Origin: Gracilibacillus ureilyticus
GTDB lineage: Bacteria > Bacillota > Bacilli > Bacillales > Amphibacillaceae
Reading direction: 5' to 3'
NCBI RefSeq assembly: GCF_900111195.1
Contig: NZ_FOGL01000004.1
Coordinates: 62,001 to 126,000 of the forward strand
Length of the DNA: 64,000 bases
In this document: piece after piece, positions 1-56,274 of the stretch
Position numbering within the stretch: position 1 is the first letter of the stretch
Layout: each line of letters begins with the position of its first letter
Notes under the pieces: model-generated
Seen by the model: only the letters and a program-made list of their open reading frames with translations
The model's database searches: none
Told to the model about the DNA's origin: nothing
Position numbers and translations under genes: made by a program

Positions 1-755
1 TAGCCCGAATTGTACCAGTCTGAACTTTCCGGTACATCCGTCTGATCTCCCCATATTTGCGGGGATGCCGGAGGCAAATCTGCATACCAGTCATAGAAAC
101 TTAGCATTGGACCACCTAGTAGTGACATAAACCGGCTTCCTGCTGCATGACTGACCATCGACATTGCAGGAATTGGTGAAAAGCCAATATTACGGTCTGA
201 CCCATATTTCATTGTTGTGTAGAGAACAGAGGCTGCTACTAGTTGTGTAACCTCCTGCCAATCAGAACGAACAAGGCCGCCTTTTCCTCTTGCTTGTTTA
301 TAGCTCCGTGCTTTTTCCGGATCTTCGACAATGCTTTTCCATGCTTCCATAGGATTTGAATAATGCTTTAATGCTTCACGCCACAGATACAGCAGTTTTT
401 TTCTTACATATGGGTACTTCACGCGGAGCGGGCTGTAGATATACCATGAAAAACTCGCACCTCTCGGACAGCCTCTCGGTTCAAAATCCGGCATATCCGG
501 GCCTGTAGAAGGATAGTCCAATGATTGACCTTCCCATGTTACTATTCCGTCCTTCACATATATATTCCAGCTGCATGAACCGGTACAGTTTACGCCATGT
601 GTAGAGCGGATTACCTTATCATGCTGCCACCTTCTTCTGTACACATTTTCCCAATCACGGTCCCCTTCCTGCAGCTGACTGTGATTGTTCGAATATTTTT
701 CTTTTGGTTTCAAGTAATTCATTCTTTGCCATAATGGAGATTTTTTCTTTGGCAT
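1..755 (-). CDS. narG: Respiratory nitrate reductase alpha subunit NarG, N-terminal part (cut by window edge)
   Basis: About 251 N-terminal residues are visible and the gene runs off the left edge. NarG is the molybdenum (Mo-bisMGD) subunit of the membrane-bound NarGHI complex that reduces nitrate to nitrite with electrons from menaquinol. The FS0 iron-sulfur ligand set is present: HGVNC, then GSCSW, then RGCPRG, i.e. one His and three Cys. The ATG at 753-755 is preceded by GGAGGG at 7-nt spacing; an out-of-frame ATG in that spacer is ignored. A promoter with a perfect Fnr box lies upstream. No Tat signal is expected, as NarG faces the cytoplasm. The family call is very secure; only the C-terminal part is unseen. 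Confidence 0.95.
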
Positions 756-795: not shown

Positions 796-838
796 ATTAA
801 ATCACGAACTGCAAAAGTTTGTTGTGAACTAAATCACA
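796..838 (-). promoter_or_regulatory. Fnr-activated promoter of narG
   Basis: TGTGAACTAAATCACA at 823-838 matches the B. subtilis Fnr consensus TGTGA-N6-TCACA in all ten defined positions. On the minus strand a -10-like TTTAAT (796-801) lies about 32 bp from the palindrome centre, the geometry of a class II activator site centred near -41. This implies induction of narG at low oxygen. Confidence 0.8.
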
Positions 839-42124: not shown

Positions 42125-42274
42125 ATGAGAGAGTTTAAGTTTCGTGCTTGGATAAATTTGTACTCACATTGGCATATGACAAATGAAGTACAATATGTGG
42201 ATGATAAGACACTTGAATGCAATTTAAAAATTATTGGTAATATCTATCAAAATCCAGAGTTGGTTCAGGTGTAA
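42125..42274 (+). CDS. Mini YopX-like protein inside the IS
   Basis: 49 aa, preceded by AGGAG at 8-nt spacing. The start MREFKFRAW and the end IIGNIYQNPELV are the two terminal signatures of the phage-associated YopX family (normally about 120-140 aa). The central YopX part is missing, so this is an internally shortened derivative. Its TAA lies one base before the transposase ATG, so it may serve mainly to couple translation of the transposase. Function unknown. Confidence 0.65.
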   Translation: MREFKFRAWINLYSHWHMTNEVQYVDDKTLECNLKIIGNIYQNPELVQV

Positions 42275-42275
42275 T

Positions 42276-43589
42276 ATGAACGACTTATTATTCCTCCCAG
42301 ATCTTACAGCAATCGAACCACCACAAGAGAATGAAACCGATATGATGTTTAAAGTGGAAGCAATCTATCCTCCAGAACGTTGTCCAGAATGTGGTTTTGA
42401 CAAGTTATATAAGCACAGCTCACGAAAACAATTGATTATGGATTTGCCCATTCGTTTAAAGCGAGTTGGCTTACAATTGAACCGTAGACGTTATAAGTGT
42501 CGTGAGTGTGACTCGACCTTTTGGGAACGTCTTATATCCATTGACGAAAAGCGTAGTATGACCAGAAGGCTGTTAGAATCCATTGAAGAGCAATCAATGT
42601 CTAAGACCTTTGTAGAAGTCGCAGAAAGCGTTGGTGTTGACGAGAAGACCGTTAGGAACGTCTTTAAGGACTATGCGGCATTTAAAGAAAGAGAATACCA
42701 ATTTGAGACTCCTAAATGGCTTGGGATAGATGAAATACACATCATTCGTAAACCTCGTCTGGTACTTACCAACGTCGAACGGAGAACTATCTATGACATC
42801 AAAAAGGATCGTAACAAGGATACAGTCATTAAACGCCTTTTAGAGATTGAAGATAGGTCTTATATCGAATACGTCACAATGGATATGTGGAAACCTTACA
42901 AAGATGCAGTGAATATCGTCCTTCCACACGCTAAAGTGGTGGTAGATAAGTTTCATGTAGTCCGTATGGCAAATCAAGCCTTGGATAGTGTTAGGAAATC
43001 TTTAAGAACTAATATGACACCAAAAGGAAGAAGAACACTTATGCGTGATAGGTTTATACTTCTCAAACGCAGGCACGATCTAATCGACCGTGAATTGCTA
43101 CTTTTAGAAACTTGGCTTGGAAATATTCCTGATTTGAAGGAAGCCTATGAACTCAAAGAAGAATTCTATAAGATATGGGATACGCCAAGTTCACAAGAAG
43201 GTGAAAAACGATATATAAATTGGCGTCAGCGTTGTGTATCCAGTAATGTTAAAGATGCTTATAAAGACCTTGTTAGAGCCGTAGACAATTGGAATGAAGA
43301 AATATTCAATCACTTTGATAAAAGACTTACTAACGCATATACAGAGTCTATAAATAGCATTATACGTCATATTGAACGACTGGGAAAAGGATATTCTTTC
43401 GATTCTTTAAGGGCAAAAATTTTATTCAACGAAAAGCTTCATAAAAAGCGGAAACCTCGTTTTAATAAAAATGCTTTTTACGATGCTTTACCAAATATGT
43501 TTGACCACGTTACAGATCACAACGTTTCAGATAACTTTGGTATCGACTTCACCACATTTATTAAGGAGTTGGAAAAGGGAGAGCTATAA
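42276..43589 (+). CDS. ISL3 family transposase
   Basis: 437 aa from ATG 42276. N-terminal zinc finger with CPECGF and CRECDS pairs (about residues 31-90), an HTH region (SMSKTFVEVAESVGVDEKTVRNVF) and the DDE catalytic domain: WLGIDEIHI (first Asp), VVDKFHVVRMAN (second Asp) and AYTESINSIIRHIER (Glu). It cuts and rejoins the element ends. A TTG 14 codons earlier in frame has no ribosome site. The start overlaps the mini-YopX stop by near-adjacency (TAATATG), implying coupling. Intact, so likely active. Confidence 0.97.
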   Translation: MNDLLFLPDLTAIEPPQENETDMMFKVEAIYPPERCPECGFDKLYKHSSRKQLIMDLPIRLKRVGLQLNRRRYKCRECDSTFWERLISIDEKRSMTRRLLESIEEQSMSKTFVEVAESVGVDEKTVRNVFKDYAAFKEREYQFETPKWLGIDEIHIIRKPRLVLTNVERRTIYDIKKDRNKDTVIKRLLEIEDRSYIEYVTMDMWKPYKDAVNIVLPHAKVVVDKFHVVRMANQALDSVRKSLRTNMTPKGRRTLMRDRFILLKRRHDLIDRELLLLETWLGNIPDLKEAYELKEEFYKIWDTPSSQEGEKRYINWRQRCVSSNVKDAYKDLVRAVDNWNEEIFNHFDKRLTNAYTESINSIIRHIERLGKGYSFDSLRAKILFNEKLHKKRKPRFNKNAFYDALPNMFDHVTDHNVSDNFGIDFTTFIKELEKGEL

Positions 43590-52040: not shown

Positions 52041-52436
52041 TTATTGAACAATTAATGTTGCTACCATTTCATTATGGCCTGTTCCGCAAGGGATATTACA
52101 ACGGATAGTGTATTCTCCTGGTTCTAATGTTGCTGTAGCACTGCCATCTGATTCAATCTCAATATCTGTGTTTTCTACTTCTATTCCATGGTACCCTTCT
52201 TCACTTGACAGATTTACTGTCACTTCACCAGCCGGGGCAGTATATTCTTCCTGATCAAATTCCCAGTTCGTTGCAGTAATGTTAACAGTGGAATCGTCAT
52301 TCCCTGCTTCTTCTGCTGTATTATTCGCCGATTCTTCTGAATCCTCACCAGTGCTTTCATTATCTCCGCTACCGCCACAAGCCGCAAGCAATACAAGTAA
52401 TGAAACTGCCAATAATGTTACTAACCATTTTTTCAT
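52041..52436 (-). CDS. Free-standing CuA-type cupredoxin lipoprotein
   Basis: 131 aa. Lipoprotein signal ends in LLAAC (Cys about 20), then an acidic linker. The C-terminal cupredoxin domain (about 50-131) carries a full CuA ligand set: His in EGYHGIEV, then CNIPCGTGHNEM, which matches C-x3-C-x3-H-x2-M. It resembles cytochrome oxidase subunit II without any membrane hairpin. It is divergent from the heme-copper enzyme operon, sharing a 248-bp promoter region. Likely an external electron shuttle or copper relay to that enzyme. AAAGGAG precedes the ATG. Fold and motif clear; function inferred. Confidence 0.82.
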   Translation of the reverse strand: MKKWLVTLLAVSLLVLLAACGGSGDNESTGEDSEESANNTAEEAGNDDSTVNITATNWEFDQEEYTAPAGEVTVNLSSEEGYHGIEVENTDIEIESDGSATATLEPGEYTIRCNIPCGTGHNEMVATLIVQ

Positions 52437-52587: not shown

Positions 52588-52603
52588 ATTGATTTAAATC
52601 ACA
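52588..52603. promoter_or_regulatory. Fnr-like box in the CuA/heme-copper divergent promoter region
   Basis: ATTGATTTAAATCACA matches TGTGA-N6-TCACA at 8 of 10 positions and contains TTGAT-N4-ATCAC, 9 of 10 for the FNR/DNR-type TTGAT-N4-ATCAA. It is 82 bp upstream of the operon's first ATG. Confidence 0.55.
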
Positions 52604-52625
52604 TCAAACTCGTGATGAAACTCAC

Positions 52626-52650
52626 TTACCTTAAATCGCAATTAAGGTAA
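52626..52650. promoter_or_regulatory. Perfect palindrome before the heme-copper operon
   Basis: TTACCTTAA-N7-TTAAGGTAA, with 9-bp perfect arms, between the Fnr-like box and the ribosome site. Could be an operator or a leader hairpin. Confidence 0.6.
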
Positions 52651-52684: not shown

Positions 52685-52795
52685 ATGGATAAAAATACAA
52701 CCCTCTCTGGTACGATTGCTTCTGTAATACTTGTCGCTCTCATCATTATTATCATGTGGGCGGGCGTATTCGCTCTCTATATGTCCCGGGTTTGA
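52685..52795 (+). CDS. Small single-helix subunit (subunit IIa, CbaD-like) of the heme-copper enzyme
   Basis: 36 aa, one membrane helix (about 10-32: TIASVILVALIIIIMWAG) and a short end MSRV. AAAGGAGG lies 7 nt upstream. Thermus ba3 oxidase has a comparable 34-residue subunit IIa encoded beside subunit II. Easy to miss because of its size; position and ribosome site support it. Confidence 0.8.
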   Translation: MDKNTTLSGTIASVILVALIIIIMWAGVFALYMSRV

Positions 52796-52892
52796 TAACT
52801 ATGTTTTCATTATAACGAGAAGTGTGTTTTCTTTTCTAGCAAAAGCAATCTTCTTCACAAAAATTTCACAAAGCATTAAGGGAGGCAGTTCT

Positions 52893-53354
52893 ATGGGGAA
52901 AGTAGAAGAAATATGGATGATTGCAAGTGTTAGCTTTCTTATTATCTTTATGGTTATAGTAGGCTATCAAACATTCGCACTGAGTATGGGACCACCGAGT
53001 AATAAAGAGATAATAGATCCACAGAAAGTAGATCAGACTGAACCATTTAAAGACCCTGGTCTGGTCGATTTAGGTAACAACAAATTCGAAGTTGTCATGA
53101 CCTTAGAAACATTTAATTTTAATCCTGGTGATATAGAAGTGCCAGTTGGTTCAGAGGTGGAATTTATCATGACATCCAAAGACGTATCACACGGTATTCA
53201 AATTCCTGGAACCAATGTAAATGCAATGGTACTGCCTGGTCATATCCAAAAGATCAGCCAAACATTCAATGAATCAGGGGAGTATTTGATTCTATGCAAT
53301 GAGTATTGTGGTATTGGCCACCAGGCAATGTATACGACCATTACTGTTAAGTAA
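52893..53354 (+). CDS. CuA-containing subunit II of a ba3-like heme-copper enzyme
   Basis: 153 aa from ATG 52893 (GGGAGGC upstream); the longer frame has no ribosome site. One N-terminal membrane helix (about 7-30), then a cupredoxin domain with the complete CuA site: SHGIQIPG (His) and LCNEYCGIGHQAM (Cys, Cys, His, Met). The short single-helix form is the B-family (ba3) type rather than the two-helix A-family type. It accepts electrons from an external donor and passes them to subunit I. Fits CuA-NOR as well as oxidase. 12 bp before the subunit I gene. Confidence 0.93.
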   Translation: MGKVEEIWMIASVSFLIIFMVIVGYQTFALSMGPPSNKEIIDPQKVDQTEPFKDPGLVDLGNNKFEVVMTLETFNFNPGDIEVPVGSEVEFIMTSKDVSHGIQIPGTNVNAMVLPGHIQKISQTFNESGEYLILCNEYCGIGHQAMYTTITVK

Positions 53355-53366
53355 GGAGGGGAAATT

Positions 53367-55046
53367 ATGGAACAAGTACAAAATATAATGAAAAAGCCAA
53401 AAAGTCTAATAAGTCTGGGAGTTAATACACAAGATGCCAGAATATCTCTCACTTACTTCACGACCTCATTTGCTACCTTATTAATCGGTGGAATTTTAGG
53501 ATTGATTCAAGGATTGGAACGTGCAGGATTATATCAATTACCACAAGGCTTCAATTACTATCAGGTATTATCAGCACACGGACTTCTTCTATTGGTAGTT
53601 TTTACAGCAACATTTACGATTGGTTATCAGTTAGCTAACTTATCATATGCATTCGGCGGACTGCTCCCTGGAGTGAGAAAAATGGTCTGGACTGGTATAT
53701 TCCTTAAACTGGCAGGTGTCATTCTCACTGTAACGATGATTGCCTTAAATGAAGCATCGGTACTATATACGTTCTATCCCCCACTTGCCGCTCATCCACT
53801 CTTTTATGTTGGATTGGTTATTTTGGTTCTTGGCATCTGGTCTGTTTGTTTGGCAGTATTCATAAATTATCGACATTGGCGAAAGGAACATCCCGGCCAA
53901 ACAACACCTATCCTTTCATTTTTTGCGATGGGAGTTTTCATCTTATGGTTCTTCGCTAGTCTTGGCGTAACGATAGAAGTATTCATGATAATTCCATGGG
54001 TATTAGGCATCACAGAAACAATTAATGTAATGGTAACCCGTACACTTTTCTGGTGGTTCGGCCACACACTTGTGAATATTTGGTACATAGTTGCGATTTC
54101 CGCATGGTATATCATTGTACCAAAGATTATTGGCGGCAGACATTTTAACGAAAAATTAATTAGACTTGTGGTTATATTACTCGTTATTTTAAATATTCCG
54201 GGTGGGTTTCATCATCAAATTGTAGATCCCGGCATTTCATTAACAATTAAGTTTTTACATGTATTTATGAGTTTGTCAATTGCTGTTCCTTCTCTCATGA
54301 CCGCATTTGCCATGTTTTATGTCATGGAGAAAGCAGGGAGAAAAAAAGGTGGTCAAGGATTATTCGGGTGGTTCCGGAAACTGCCTTGGGGTGATGTTAG
54401 ATTTCTTGCACCGATGATTGCAATGATTGCTTTTATTCCAGGGGGCGCAGGCGGTATCGTTAATACAAGTAACCAAATGAATCAAGTCATCCATAATACA
54501 ATGTGGGTAGTGGGCCATTTTCATTTAACTGTAGGAGTTTCTGTTGTATTGACATTCTTCGGTATTTGCTATTGGCTGATCCCGCATTTGTCCAAACGTC
54601 AATTGACACAAAGGATGAACAAAATCGGAATTATTCAAACATGGATTTGGACAGCTGGTATGGCAATCATGGCTGGATCAATGCATATTGCAGGACTTAT
54701 TGGTGACCCGAGAAGAACATCCGATACCACGTACGGCGGCTCGGATATAGCGCTTAGCTGGTTATCTTATGAGTATATTTTTGCAATTGGTGCTGCGTTA
54801 TTATTTGCTGGTGTTATTATTCAAGTATTTGCCGTATTCCATATGATGTTTTTCGCACCAAAGGGTCATACTGAATACCCTGTGGCACTGCCGGAAGAAG
54901 ATCAACCAGCTGTACCGATGTGGACAGAACGTTGGGGATTATGGTCTATCCTGCTAATCGCTGTTGTAGCCATGGCATATGTTATTCCCATCGTTGATAT
55001 GATTGTAAACGCACCTCCTGGCTCACCTCCATTCCGTACATGGTAA
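53367..55046 (+). CDS. ba3-like heme-copper subunit I lacking the cross-linked tyrosine; probable CuA-type nitric oxide reductase
   Basis: 559 aa, about 13 membrane helices. Metal ligands are intact: heme b His71 (SAHGLL), CuB/FeB site His233 (WWFGHTLVN), His282-His283 (GFHHQIVDPG), and His384/His386 (VVGHFHL). The residue four after His233 is Asn237; in oxygen reductases of this family it is the tyrosine cross-linked to that His (Tyr237 in Thermus ba3, same number as I recall it). Of the K-path residues, Tyr244 is Ile, while Tyr248, Ser309 and Thr312 are kept. NO reductases characteristically lack that tyrosine, and a CuA-NOR is known from Bacillus azotoformans. NO + NO to N2O is therefore the favoured reaction. 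AAGGAGGGG precedes the ATG. Confidence 0.85.
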   Translation: MEQVQNIMKKPKSLISLGVNTQDARISLTYFTTSFATLLIGGILGLIQGLERAGLYQLPQGFNYYQVLSAHGLLLLVVFTATFTIGYQLANLSYAFGGLLPGVRKMVWTGIFLKLAGVILTVTMIALNEASVLYTFYPPLAAHPLFYVGLVILVLGIWSVCLAVFINYRHWRKEHPGQTTPILSFFAMGVFILWFFASLGVTIEVFMIIPWVLGITETINVMVTRTLFWWFGHTLVNIWYIVAISAWYIIVPKIIGGRHFNEKLIRLVVILLVILNIPGGFHHQIVDPGISLTIKFLHVFMSLSIAVPSLMTAFAMFYVMEKAGRKKGGQGLFGWFRKLPWGDVRFLAPMIAMIAFIPGGAGGIVNTSNQMNQVIHNTMWVVGHFHLTVGVSVVLTFFGICYWLIPHLSKRQLTQRMNKIGIIQTWIWTAGMAIMAGSMHIAGLIGDPRRTSDTTYGGSDIALSWLSYEYIFAIGAALLFAGVIIQVFAVFHMMFFAPKGHTEYPVALPEEDQPAVPMWTERWGLWSILLIAVVAMAYVIPIVDMIVNAPPGSPPFRTW

Positions 55047-55090
55047 GCAAGAGTTTATTGAAAGGATAAGTTGAAATTGGGGGTTAGAGG

Positions 55091-55720
55091 ATGCAGAGAA
55101 AATATCATGATATAATTGCCAGTCTACTCGTCGTTTGTTTCGGAATGGTTGTTTTGGCTATAGGAACAGATGGATTCCAGGCGTTTACTTCTGAACAGGC
55201 GAGAACAAATCAACTTATTTCAGAACAGCCGGTTATCCCTAATATAATGATAGAAGATAGTAAAGCGCGCCTTTATCCAATTGACGAGTTCCAGGAGAAT
55301 ACTTTTCTATTTGTTACTTTTATGTATACAAATTGTGGTACCGTCTGTCCACAGTTAGAAAGAAATATGCAAAAAGTGTATGAAATACTGCCTGAAAAAT
55401 ATATTAATGAAAAGGTGCGTTTTCTTAGCATTAGCTTCGACACTGATACGGACGACCCAGAAACATTAGCAACATATCAATCCTACTTCGATAGTGATGG
55501 AGAAACATGGCGAATGGCGAGAATTCCAAGTGAGATTGAATTACAGCAACTGCTCGATCAATTGGGGGTTATTGTAATTCCAGATGATTATGGTAATTTT
55601 CAGCACAACTCCGCTTTCTATTTATTAAATGAATACAGGCAATTAGTAGATGTGATGGACTACACGAAGGTCGAACAAGCAGCAAAAACCATAACACAAC
55701 ATATTGAGGAGAAATTCTGA
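55091..55720 (+). CDS. Sco1/SenC-like copper chaperone
   Basis: 209 aa. N-terminal membrane anchor (about 8-27) and an extracytoplasmic thioredoxin fold with the Sco copper motif CGTVC (about residue 97; TNCGTVCPQ) and the third ligand His in FQHNSAFYLL. It probably loads or maintains CuA in subunit II and perhaps in the divergent lipoprotein. GGGGTTAGAGG upstream of the ATG. Stop and the next start share one base (TGATG), so the two are translationally coupled. Confidence 0.92.
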   Translation: MQRKYHDIIASLLVVCFGMVVLAIGTDGFQAFTSEQARTNQLISEQPVIPNIMIEDSKARLYPIDEFQENTFLFVTFMYTNCGTVCPQLERNMQKVYEILPEKYINEKVRFLSISFDTDTDDPETLATYQSYFDSDGETWRMARIPSEIELQQLLDQLGVIVIPDDYGNFQHNSAFYLLNEYRQLVDVMDYTKVEQAAKTITQHIEEKF

Positions 55721-56274
55721 TGAAACAAGCAGGATATGGACTTACGCTTTATATAATTCTTATATTACCACCTGTAAGCGAGCTGCTTGAATCGATGATG
55801 GTTTTTCACATGCATACACAAATGCCTTTGTTTGTATTCTCTGGTTTTTTAATTGCACCATTTCTGCAAAGAAAATTTCCAAACTTTTTTAATAAATGGA
55901 ATCGAACCGGGATTCCCGGATTATTGCTCGTTGTACTTATATGGACTTACTGGCAACTGCCAAGAGCGATGGATGATGCTTTATTACTTACAATGGTGGA
56001 ATTGTTTAAATTTATCAGTTTACCCTTTTTGGTAGGTGTACCGCTTCATGACAGCTGGAAGAAAGTGAACGCAAAAGTTCAATATAGTTTTTTAATCTAT
56101 ATATTTCTTTCATTAATTATTACCGGCTTTTTGTACATTTGGCTGGATGAACAAATTTGCAACAATTATCTTGTCATCGAACAACAAACCTTAGGCTGGT
56201 CCTCACTTGCGATGGGATTTTGTCTATTATTATATTTATCAATGAAACTATTTGGAAAAGAAAATACAATGTGA
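55720..56274 (+). CDS. Membrane protein of the heme-copper operon, CtaG-like in part
   Basis: 184 aa with five membrane helices. The segment ESMMVFHMHTQMPLFVFSGF places two His and several Met in one helix, recalling the HMxxHxxL segment of CtaG-type copper assembly factors, but the protein is shorter. Overlap by one base with the Sco gene and the shared transcript suggest a role in copper insertion or assembly. I cannot assign a named family with confidence. Confidence 0.6.
   Translation: MKQAGYGLTLYIILILPPVSELLESMMVFHMHTQMPLFVFSGFLIAPFLQRKFPNFFNKWNRTGIPGLLLVVLIWTYWQLPRAMDDALLLTMVELFKFISLPFLVGVPLHDSWKKVNAKVQYSFLIYIFLSLIITGFLYIWLDEQICNNYLVIEQQTLGWSSLAMGFCLLLYLSMKLFGKENTM

Follow-up and report, generated by a model that had tools for sequence, protein, structure and literature searches.

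The CuA-dependent nitric oxide reductase (CuANOR) of Bacillus azotoformans is the biochemically described enzyme nearest to the system considered here. Heylen and Keltjens (2012; PMC3475470) assigned this purified enzyme, which shows nitric oxide (NO) reductase activity and contains two b hemes, to the gene cluster cbaC1-cbaB1-cbaA1-senC1-cbaD1. In the subunit I that this cluster encodes, Asn stands where the cross-linked Tyr would be expected, and B. (Neobacillus) bataviensis and others carry the same cluster. Cytochrome c551 is reported as its specific donor, menaquinol is also accepted, and the type I cluster is named "qCuANOR, sNOR" in the same paper (PMC3475470). CuANOR was further reported to be electrogenic, and an analogue of the K-path was suggested for it (PMC5826923); the family later received the name bNOR (PMC11388526). 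Here, we analyzed a stretch of 64,000 nucleotides from Gracilibacillus ureilyticus (the window; contig NZ_FOGL01000004.1, positions 62,001 to 126,000), in which an operon at 52685-56274 had been proposed, in a previous sequence-only reading, to encode a CuA-dependent NO reductase (NOR). Our comparisons of gene order, active-site residues, percent identity and phylogeny bore this proposal out, and we conclude with high confidence, from sequence comparison, that its product is a bNOR (CuANOR, qCuANOR type I), a heme-copper enzyme of the B family predicted to convert 2 NO to N2O. The bNOR family with its gene cluster has been published before, and so has the Asn substitution; thus, the operon of the window is a well-supported new example of a known family and not a new kind.

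The operon is an intact five-gene cluster in the order IIa, II (CuA), I, SCO, and membrane protein (table 1). It resembles the CuANOR/qCuANOR type I/bNOR clusters described in B. azotoformans and B. bataviensis in gene order, in the short IIa, in the CuA-bearing subunit II, in the SCO and CbaD genes, and in the Asn that replaces the cross-linked Tyr. However, IIa has 36 residues in the window compared with 46 in both Bacillus species, ctaB is linked to the cluster in B. bataviensis (PMC3475470), and a divergent gene for a CuA-type lipoprotein adjoins the operon of the window. The single-helix IIa that had been noticed in front of subunit II was confirmed by the CoxIIa model; the sequence aggagg lies directly 5' of it, and ribosome-binding sites precede both IIa and II. 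The 184-residue membrane protein gave nothing above cut-off in the Pfam search, and the NCBIfam oxidase models were far under cut-off for subunit I, the best being CtaD_CoxA with 83.2 bits against 670.75. For comparison, 80 named bNOR loci, recruited by the patterns GGFHHQI[VI] and QV[IV]HN[TS][LM]W, were kept of 245 relatives. A tblastn search over these loci matched subunit II in all 80, SCO in 78 and CbaD in 77, but IIa in only 33, which may reflect the difficulty of matching 36 residues. Two of the bNOR loci, L090 (Halobacillus andaensis) and L101 (Thalassobacillus pellis), have a CuA-type lipoprotein and no SCO or CbaD match nearby.

Subunit II has the full CuA site that the sequence-only reading had claimed, with the five ligands His100, Cys135, Cys139, His143, and Met146, each present in 80/80 of the named relatives. 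Glu5 of the same subunit is likewise found in 80/80 and was aligned by eye with the Glu at the entrance of the K-path in subunit II of Thermus. The CuA motif was also present in all seven oxygen-reductase loci whose subunit II was inspected in full.

In the alignment of subunit I with the Thermus ba3 oxidase (1EHK), the window stretch GHTLVNIWYIVAISAWY falls on Thermus GHPIVYFWLLPAYAIIY, such that His233 and Tyr248 are retained, whereas Tyr237 is replaced by Asn237, Leu240 by Tyr240, and Tyr244 by Ile244. Two hallmarks of B-family oxygen reductases, a Tyr four residues past the CuB His and the upper K-path Tyr244, are hence missing from the window, which has Asn and Ile in their places. The six heme/CuB histidines (71, 233, 282, 283, 384, and 386), together with Ser309 and Thr312, are present in the window and invariant in 106 distinct bNOR-type rows. 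These results agreed with the residues listed in the sequence-only reading, namely the six histidines, Asn four positions after His233, Ile for the next K-path Tyr, and the retained Tyr248, Ser309, and Thr312.

The comparison set was assembled from 127 alignment rows, with some genes present twice, which were reduced by identical core to the 106 bNOR rows; the window copies L003, L005, L007, and L078 were all left out. The 20 oxygen-reductase rows comprised a sample of 18 out of 82, a B. bataviensis sequence, and the Thermus enzyme. A whole-protein search supplied 52 of 59 bNOR-type matches (>700 bits, window included) and 18 of 82 oxygen-reductase-type matches, the rest being sorted by score alone. 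Asn237 occurred in 106/106 bNOR rows, window included, and is therefore no sequencing slip. Tyr240 was found in 105 of them (Phe in L117) and in none of the 20 oxygen reductases, and position 244 was V, I, T, L, or A, with Tyr in 0/106. Asn276 and Gly279 were invariant in the bNOR rows, Gly279 being partly selected for in the 80 named loci and the loci from the whole-protein search being free of that bias. Tyr237, Leu240, Tyr244, Ser276, and Val279 each occurred in 20/20 oxygen-reductase rows, so that no residue was common to the two sets at any of these five positions; position 309 was Ser in 17 and Thr in 3 of the 20. All ligands were also retained in relatives of 59-87% identity, a set from which the window copies L003, L005, and L007 were left out, with L078 uncounted as another copy; L178 was also uncounted, as it duplicates the B. 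bataviensis gene.

The likeness to the ba3 oxygen reductases of Thermus and the Bacillaceae extends to the fold, the metal ligands, the lower K-path residues, and the CuA motif: the AlphaFold model of subunit I (mean pLDDT 83.0) matched 1EHK with Z 44.4 over 532 residues (root-mean-square deviation 2.4 Å). It ends at the five discriminating residues, which are absent from the window and its relatives. One alternative is an atypical oxygen reductase of the B family, with Tyr240 standing in for Tyr237. When positions were scanned for a Tyr shared by at least 95% of bNORs but by no more than 30% of oxygen reductases, only Tyr87 and Tyr240 came up, and wheel arithmetic places Tyr240 on the helical face of His233 and Tyr248; however, the ideal-helix rise from His233 is 10.5 Å for Tyr240 (i+7) compared with 6 Å for position 237 (i+4), so that a covalent link to His233 is unlikely on this ideal-helix arithmetic, which is not a measured distance. 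Helix VII is also changed near the CuB ligands, by Gly279 for Val279 and Asn276 for Ser276, and the purified CuANOR has the same Asn pattern (PMC3475470). Even with the nesting of bNORs among oxygen reductases in one tree (see below) in its favor, we consider the oxygen-reductase explanation very improbable. A compensating tyrosine, which the sequence-only reading had named as a possible refutation, was thus found as a near-invariant residue, but one for which the cross-link appears unlikely.

Percent identity and phylogeny placed the window in the same family. The nearest named relatives of subunit I are from Gracilibacillus (85-87% identity). Compared with the three B. bataviensis proteins, identity was 62% to type I (L127, which sits on contig02 at the position stated in PMC3475470), 49% to the Tyr-bearing oxidase, and 27% to type II. 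The more careful of two trees (44 rows, with type II and the A family left out) contained 28 bNOR rows, that is, 27 of the 80 named loci and the window, and these formed a single clade (support 100/100) that is separate from the oxygen reductases with Tyr237. Within this clade, the window protein lies next to Gracilibacillus, and B. bataviensis L127 is also a member. When this tree was rooted on Thermus, the oxygen reductases were paraphyletic to the bNORs, with 99/99 at the main fork, and this root rests on one very long Thermus branch; in a quick tree with type II and A-family outgroups, in which the type II and Thermus branches are very long, the oxygen reductases were all to one side of a branch supported at 75. 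Because the Thermus branch is long and the two trees disagree, the nesting of the bNORs is no more than a hint of descent from an oxygen reductase. The tree proposed in the sequence-only reading as a check therefore separated the clade from the Tyr237 enzymes, although one of the two trees nests it among them. Apart from this, the bNOR of G. dipsosauri (L107) grouped with Lentibacillus, away from its own genus, in the careful tree, which suggests horizontal transfer of this gene.

The same identities bear on a possible assignment to the sNOR/type II enzymes or to other NORs derived from the B family (eNOR, gNOR, or nNOR). The type II protein of B. bataviensis (L180; type II being the BABA_18502 type) also has Asn four after the CuB His (GHIFAN), and the "qCuANOR, sNOR" label for the type I cluster could be taken to join the two groups. 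Nevertheless, the 27% identity to type II covers only residues 212-480, in a comparison made without eNOR, gNOR, and nNOR; the type II protein is shorter, with 501 residues stop to stop; and its cluster, as described in PMC3475470, differs in that its subunit II has two helices and its third protein 4-5. We regard membership in these groups as most improbable.

The distribution of the operon is patchy. In 159 family genomes searched, bNOR-type matches (>700 bits) were found in 59, and in the genus they were found in 8 of 17. Such a pattern might be expected of a decayed or non-functional remnant, but the five reading frames are intact, the ribosome-binding sites before IIa and II are in place, and the relatives of 59-87% identity have kept every ligand; decay is thus an exceedingly remote explanation for this bNOR operon. 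In four genus genomes without the operon (L161, L162, L164, and L168), the genes on either side (LLM, lipoprotein, ElyC, and nuclease) are present, and in L165 the LLM, lipoprotein, and nuclease flanks are present, with ElyC not found. On this comparison of flanking genes, the operon at this site is a presence/absence cassette, and the data fit gain or loss alike.

We then addressed the regulation of the operon through its upstream regions, using 77 of the 80 named loci, three being too close to the contig end. With up to one mismatch allowed, the Fnr-type box TGTGA-N6-TCACA was found within 500 bp upstream of subunit II in 60 of the 77, compared with 35 of 1539 other 500-bp windows from the same loci, most of which are coding sequence. 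In 1100-bp regions before subunit I, a box was present in 61/77 bNOR compared with 4/20 oxygen-reductase genes, the latter being 20 of 82; when the 77 bNOR regions were shuffled with dinucleotides preserved, the mean was 4.15/77 and the maximum 8 in 20 rounds. The window itself has two boxes, 23 bp apart, in register with the pairs of L080, L082, L083, and L093, and two or more such sites as in the window region arose in 0.4% of shuffles. The motif is compatible with more than one Crp/Fnr-family regulator and does not specify the binder. The four oxygen-reductase operons with an upstream Fnr-type box are L190, L195, L197, and L200, and some B-family oxidases may be Fnr-controlled too.

The lipoprotein gene divergent from the operon encodes a stand-alone CuA-type cupredoxin, and in seven of the eight bNOR-bearing genomes of the genus the operon lies beside it, as in the window. 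It was found within 10 kb of at least 22 of 59 bNOR-type compared with at least 4 of 82 oxygen-reductase-type matches, and in at least 19 of the 80 named bNOR loci; these counts are lower bounds, since at most 26 candidates were scored per genome and the named loci reach only some 5 kb beyond the gene. From the lipoprotein tally, 14 rows below 42 bits were dropped, 13 of which were subunit II beside a subunit I match and one (G138) the leader half only, and from the subunit I tally 3 fragments below 100 bits were dropped; in the named loci, the best tblastn hit of the lipoprotein mostly picks subunit II. A role as bNOR-specific partner was rejected, because the lipoprotein is present in 17/17 genus genomes, compared with 8/17 for bNOR, and stays where the operon is absent. 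It is a possible electron carrier or copper donor that is not specific to bNOR.

Table 1. Positions of the bNOR operon and other features in the window
Feature	Coordinates	Strand	Evidence or remark
Subunit IIa (CbaC), 36 aa, single helix	52685..52795	+	Pfam PF08113 CoxIIa, 23.3 bits (cut-off 20.7)
Subunit II (CbaB), 153 aa	52893..53354	+	COX2, 41.7 bits (cut-off 22); CuA site
Subunit I (CbaA), catalytic, 559 aa, Asn237/Tyr240/Ile244	53367..55046	+	COX1, 266.6 bits (cut-off 34.8)
Helix VI active-site stretch: CuB ligand His233, Asn237, Tyr240, Ile244, Tyr248	54063..54110	+	1EHK alignment, residue counts
SCO/SenC-type copper chaperone	55091..55720	+	PF02630 SCO1-SenC, 50.2 bits (cut-off 22.8)
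CbaD-like membrane protein, 184 aa	55720..56274	+	tblastn matches in bNOR loci; position as cbaD1 of B. azotoformans
Fnr-like box, 2 mismatches to TGTGA-N6-TCACA	52588..52603	.	
Second Fnr-like box, 2 mismatches	52611..52626	.	23 bp from the first
Divergent stand-alone CuA-type cupredoxin lipoprotein (CxxxCxxxHxxM)	52041..52436	-	
Perfect Fnr-type box upstream of narG	823-838		
Start of narG, first 251 codons, cut by window edge	3-755	-	Whole gene in genome
Open frame, transposase-like by eye	42234-43589	+	

The host genome (4.07 Mb, 99.99% complete) was searched for the other enzymes of NO metabolism. It has two narG genes, and the window carries a perfect Fnr-type box upstream of one of them. 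The search found no NirK, the Cu-oxidase_3 domain being unmatched, no NirS domain match, no NO synthase, and no full NosZ, two matches to the NosZ model having been set aside, one of which is the present subunit II. Three COX1 genes scored above cut-off, the bNOR and two A-family-looking genes (L001 and L002), and the genome search yielded no additional COX1-family gene as a candidate for another NOR; a fourth match, L004, with 25.2 bits and an internal stop, lay below cut-off and was set aside. Given the scope of the COX1 Pfam family, this result also speaks against a qNOR in the host. A c551 model gave 11 matches, none over the cut-off, with the best at 76.8 bits of 118. The denitrification-type lifestyle suggested in the sequence-only reading was thus supported as regards nitrate reduction, but not as regards nirK, nirS, and a full nosZ; because two narG genes were found but none of nirK, nirS, nosZ, NO synthase, or another NOR, "denitrifier" is too strong a term for this host. 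NO might come from a side reaction of nitrate/nitrite metabolism or from neighbors. In the host, the enzyme would most likely remove NO during nitrate respiration under Fnr-type control, and not serve a full denitrification chain.

Electron transfer from CuA via the low-spin heme to the heme/CuB site is established for the superfamily. In the window enzyme, a membrane c-type cytochrome (c551, for example) or menaquinol would deliver electrons to CuA of subunit II, from which they would reach first the low-spin heme and finally the heme/CuB site; there, two NO would join. A tyrosyl radical would not be needed, because no four-electron O-O bond scission takes place. Protons would come from the cytoplasm through a remodeled K-path, in which Glu5 of subunit II at the entrance, Tyr248, Thr312, and Ser309 are retained, Tyr237 is changed to Asn and Tyr244 to an aliphatic residue or Thr, and Tyr240 lies between; Tyr240 may act as a proton relay between the positions of the lost Tyr237 and Tyr244. 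The retained lower K-path and Tyr240 would fit the K-path analogue suggested for CuANOR (PMC5826923). More speculatively, and with considerable doubt, we propose that the proton path was rewired in bNORs: Tyr240, half-way, would replace Tyr237 and Tyr244, together with Asn237, Asn276, and a pocket-opening change of Val279 to Gly, and would be the last relay to bound NO, which would explain electrogenicity, with the linked CuA-type lipoprotein feeding electrons or copper in part of the family. A literature search on the active-site change found no paper, and the residue signature and the promoter pattern may be new, in a comparison that did not extend to the most relevant papers.

Several points weigh against the assignment and the physiological role drawn from it. 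We know of no activity for any Gracilibacillus enzyme. Both Fnr-like boxes of the window carry two mismatches, 17/77 bNOR loci, B. bataviensis included, have no box at one mismatch or fewer, and the NO-producing enzymes searched for were not found in the host genome. B. azotoformans was not among the 80 loci kept, and the link to the purified enzyme runs via B. bataviensis and the description in PMC3475470. In addition, oxygen reductases such as ba3 are reported to reduce NO slowly (PMC8780969), so that a residual O2 activity of the window enzyme is possible.

As regards annotation, the sequence-only reading had held that this operon is easily mis-annotated as a cytochrome oxidase; this is indeed so and already in print, since KEGG labels bNOR as coxA (PMC11388526). 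Standard annotation misses bNORs when NOR content is predicted, and the only NOR found in this nitrate-reducing genome would read as an oxidase, so that N2O output would be under-predicted. The signature Asn237, Tyr240, Asn276, and Gly279 separated the 106 bNORs from the 20 B-family oxygen reductases, with a single bNOR having Phe240. Taken together, the comparison yields a testable proposal, that the proton path may have been reworked as an oxidase scaffold was adapted to NO.

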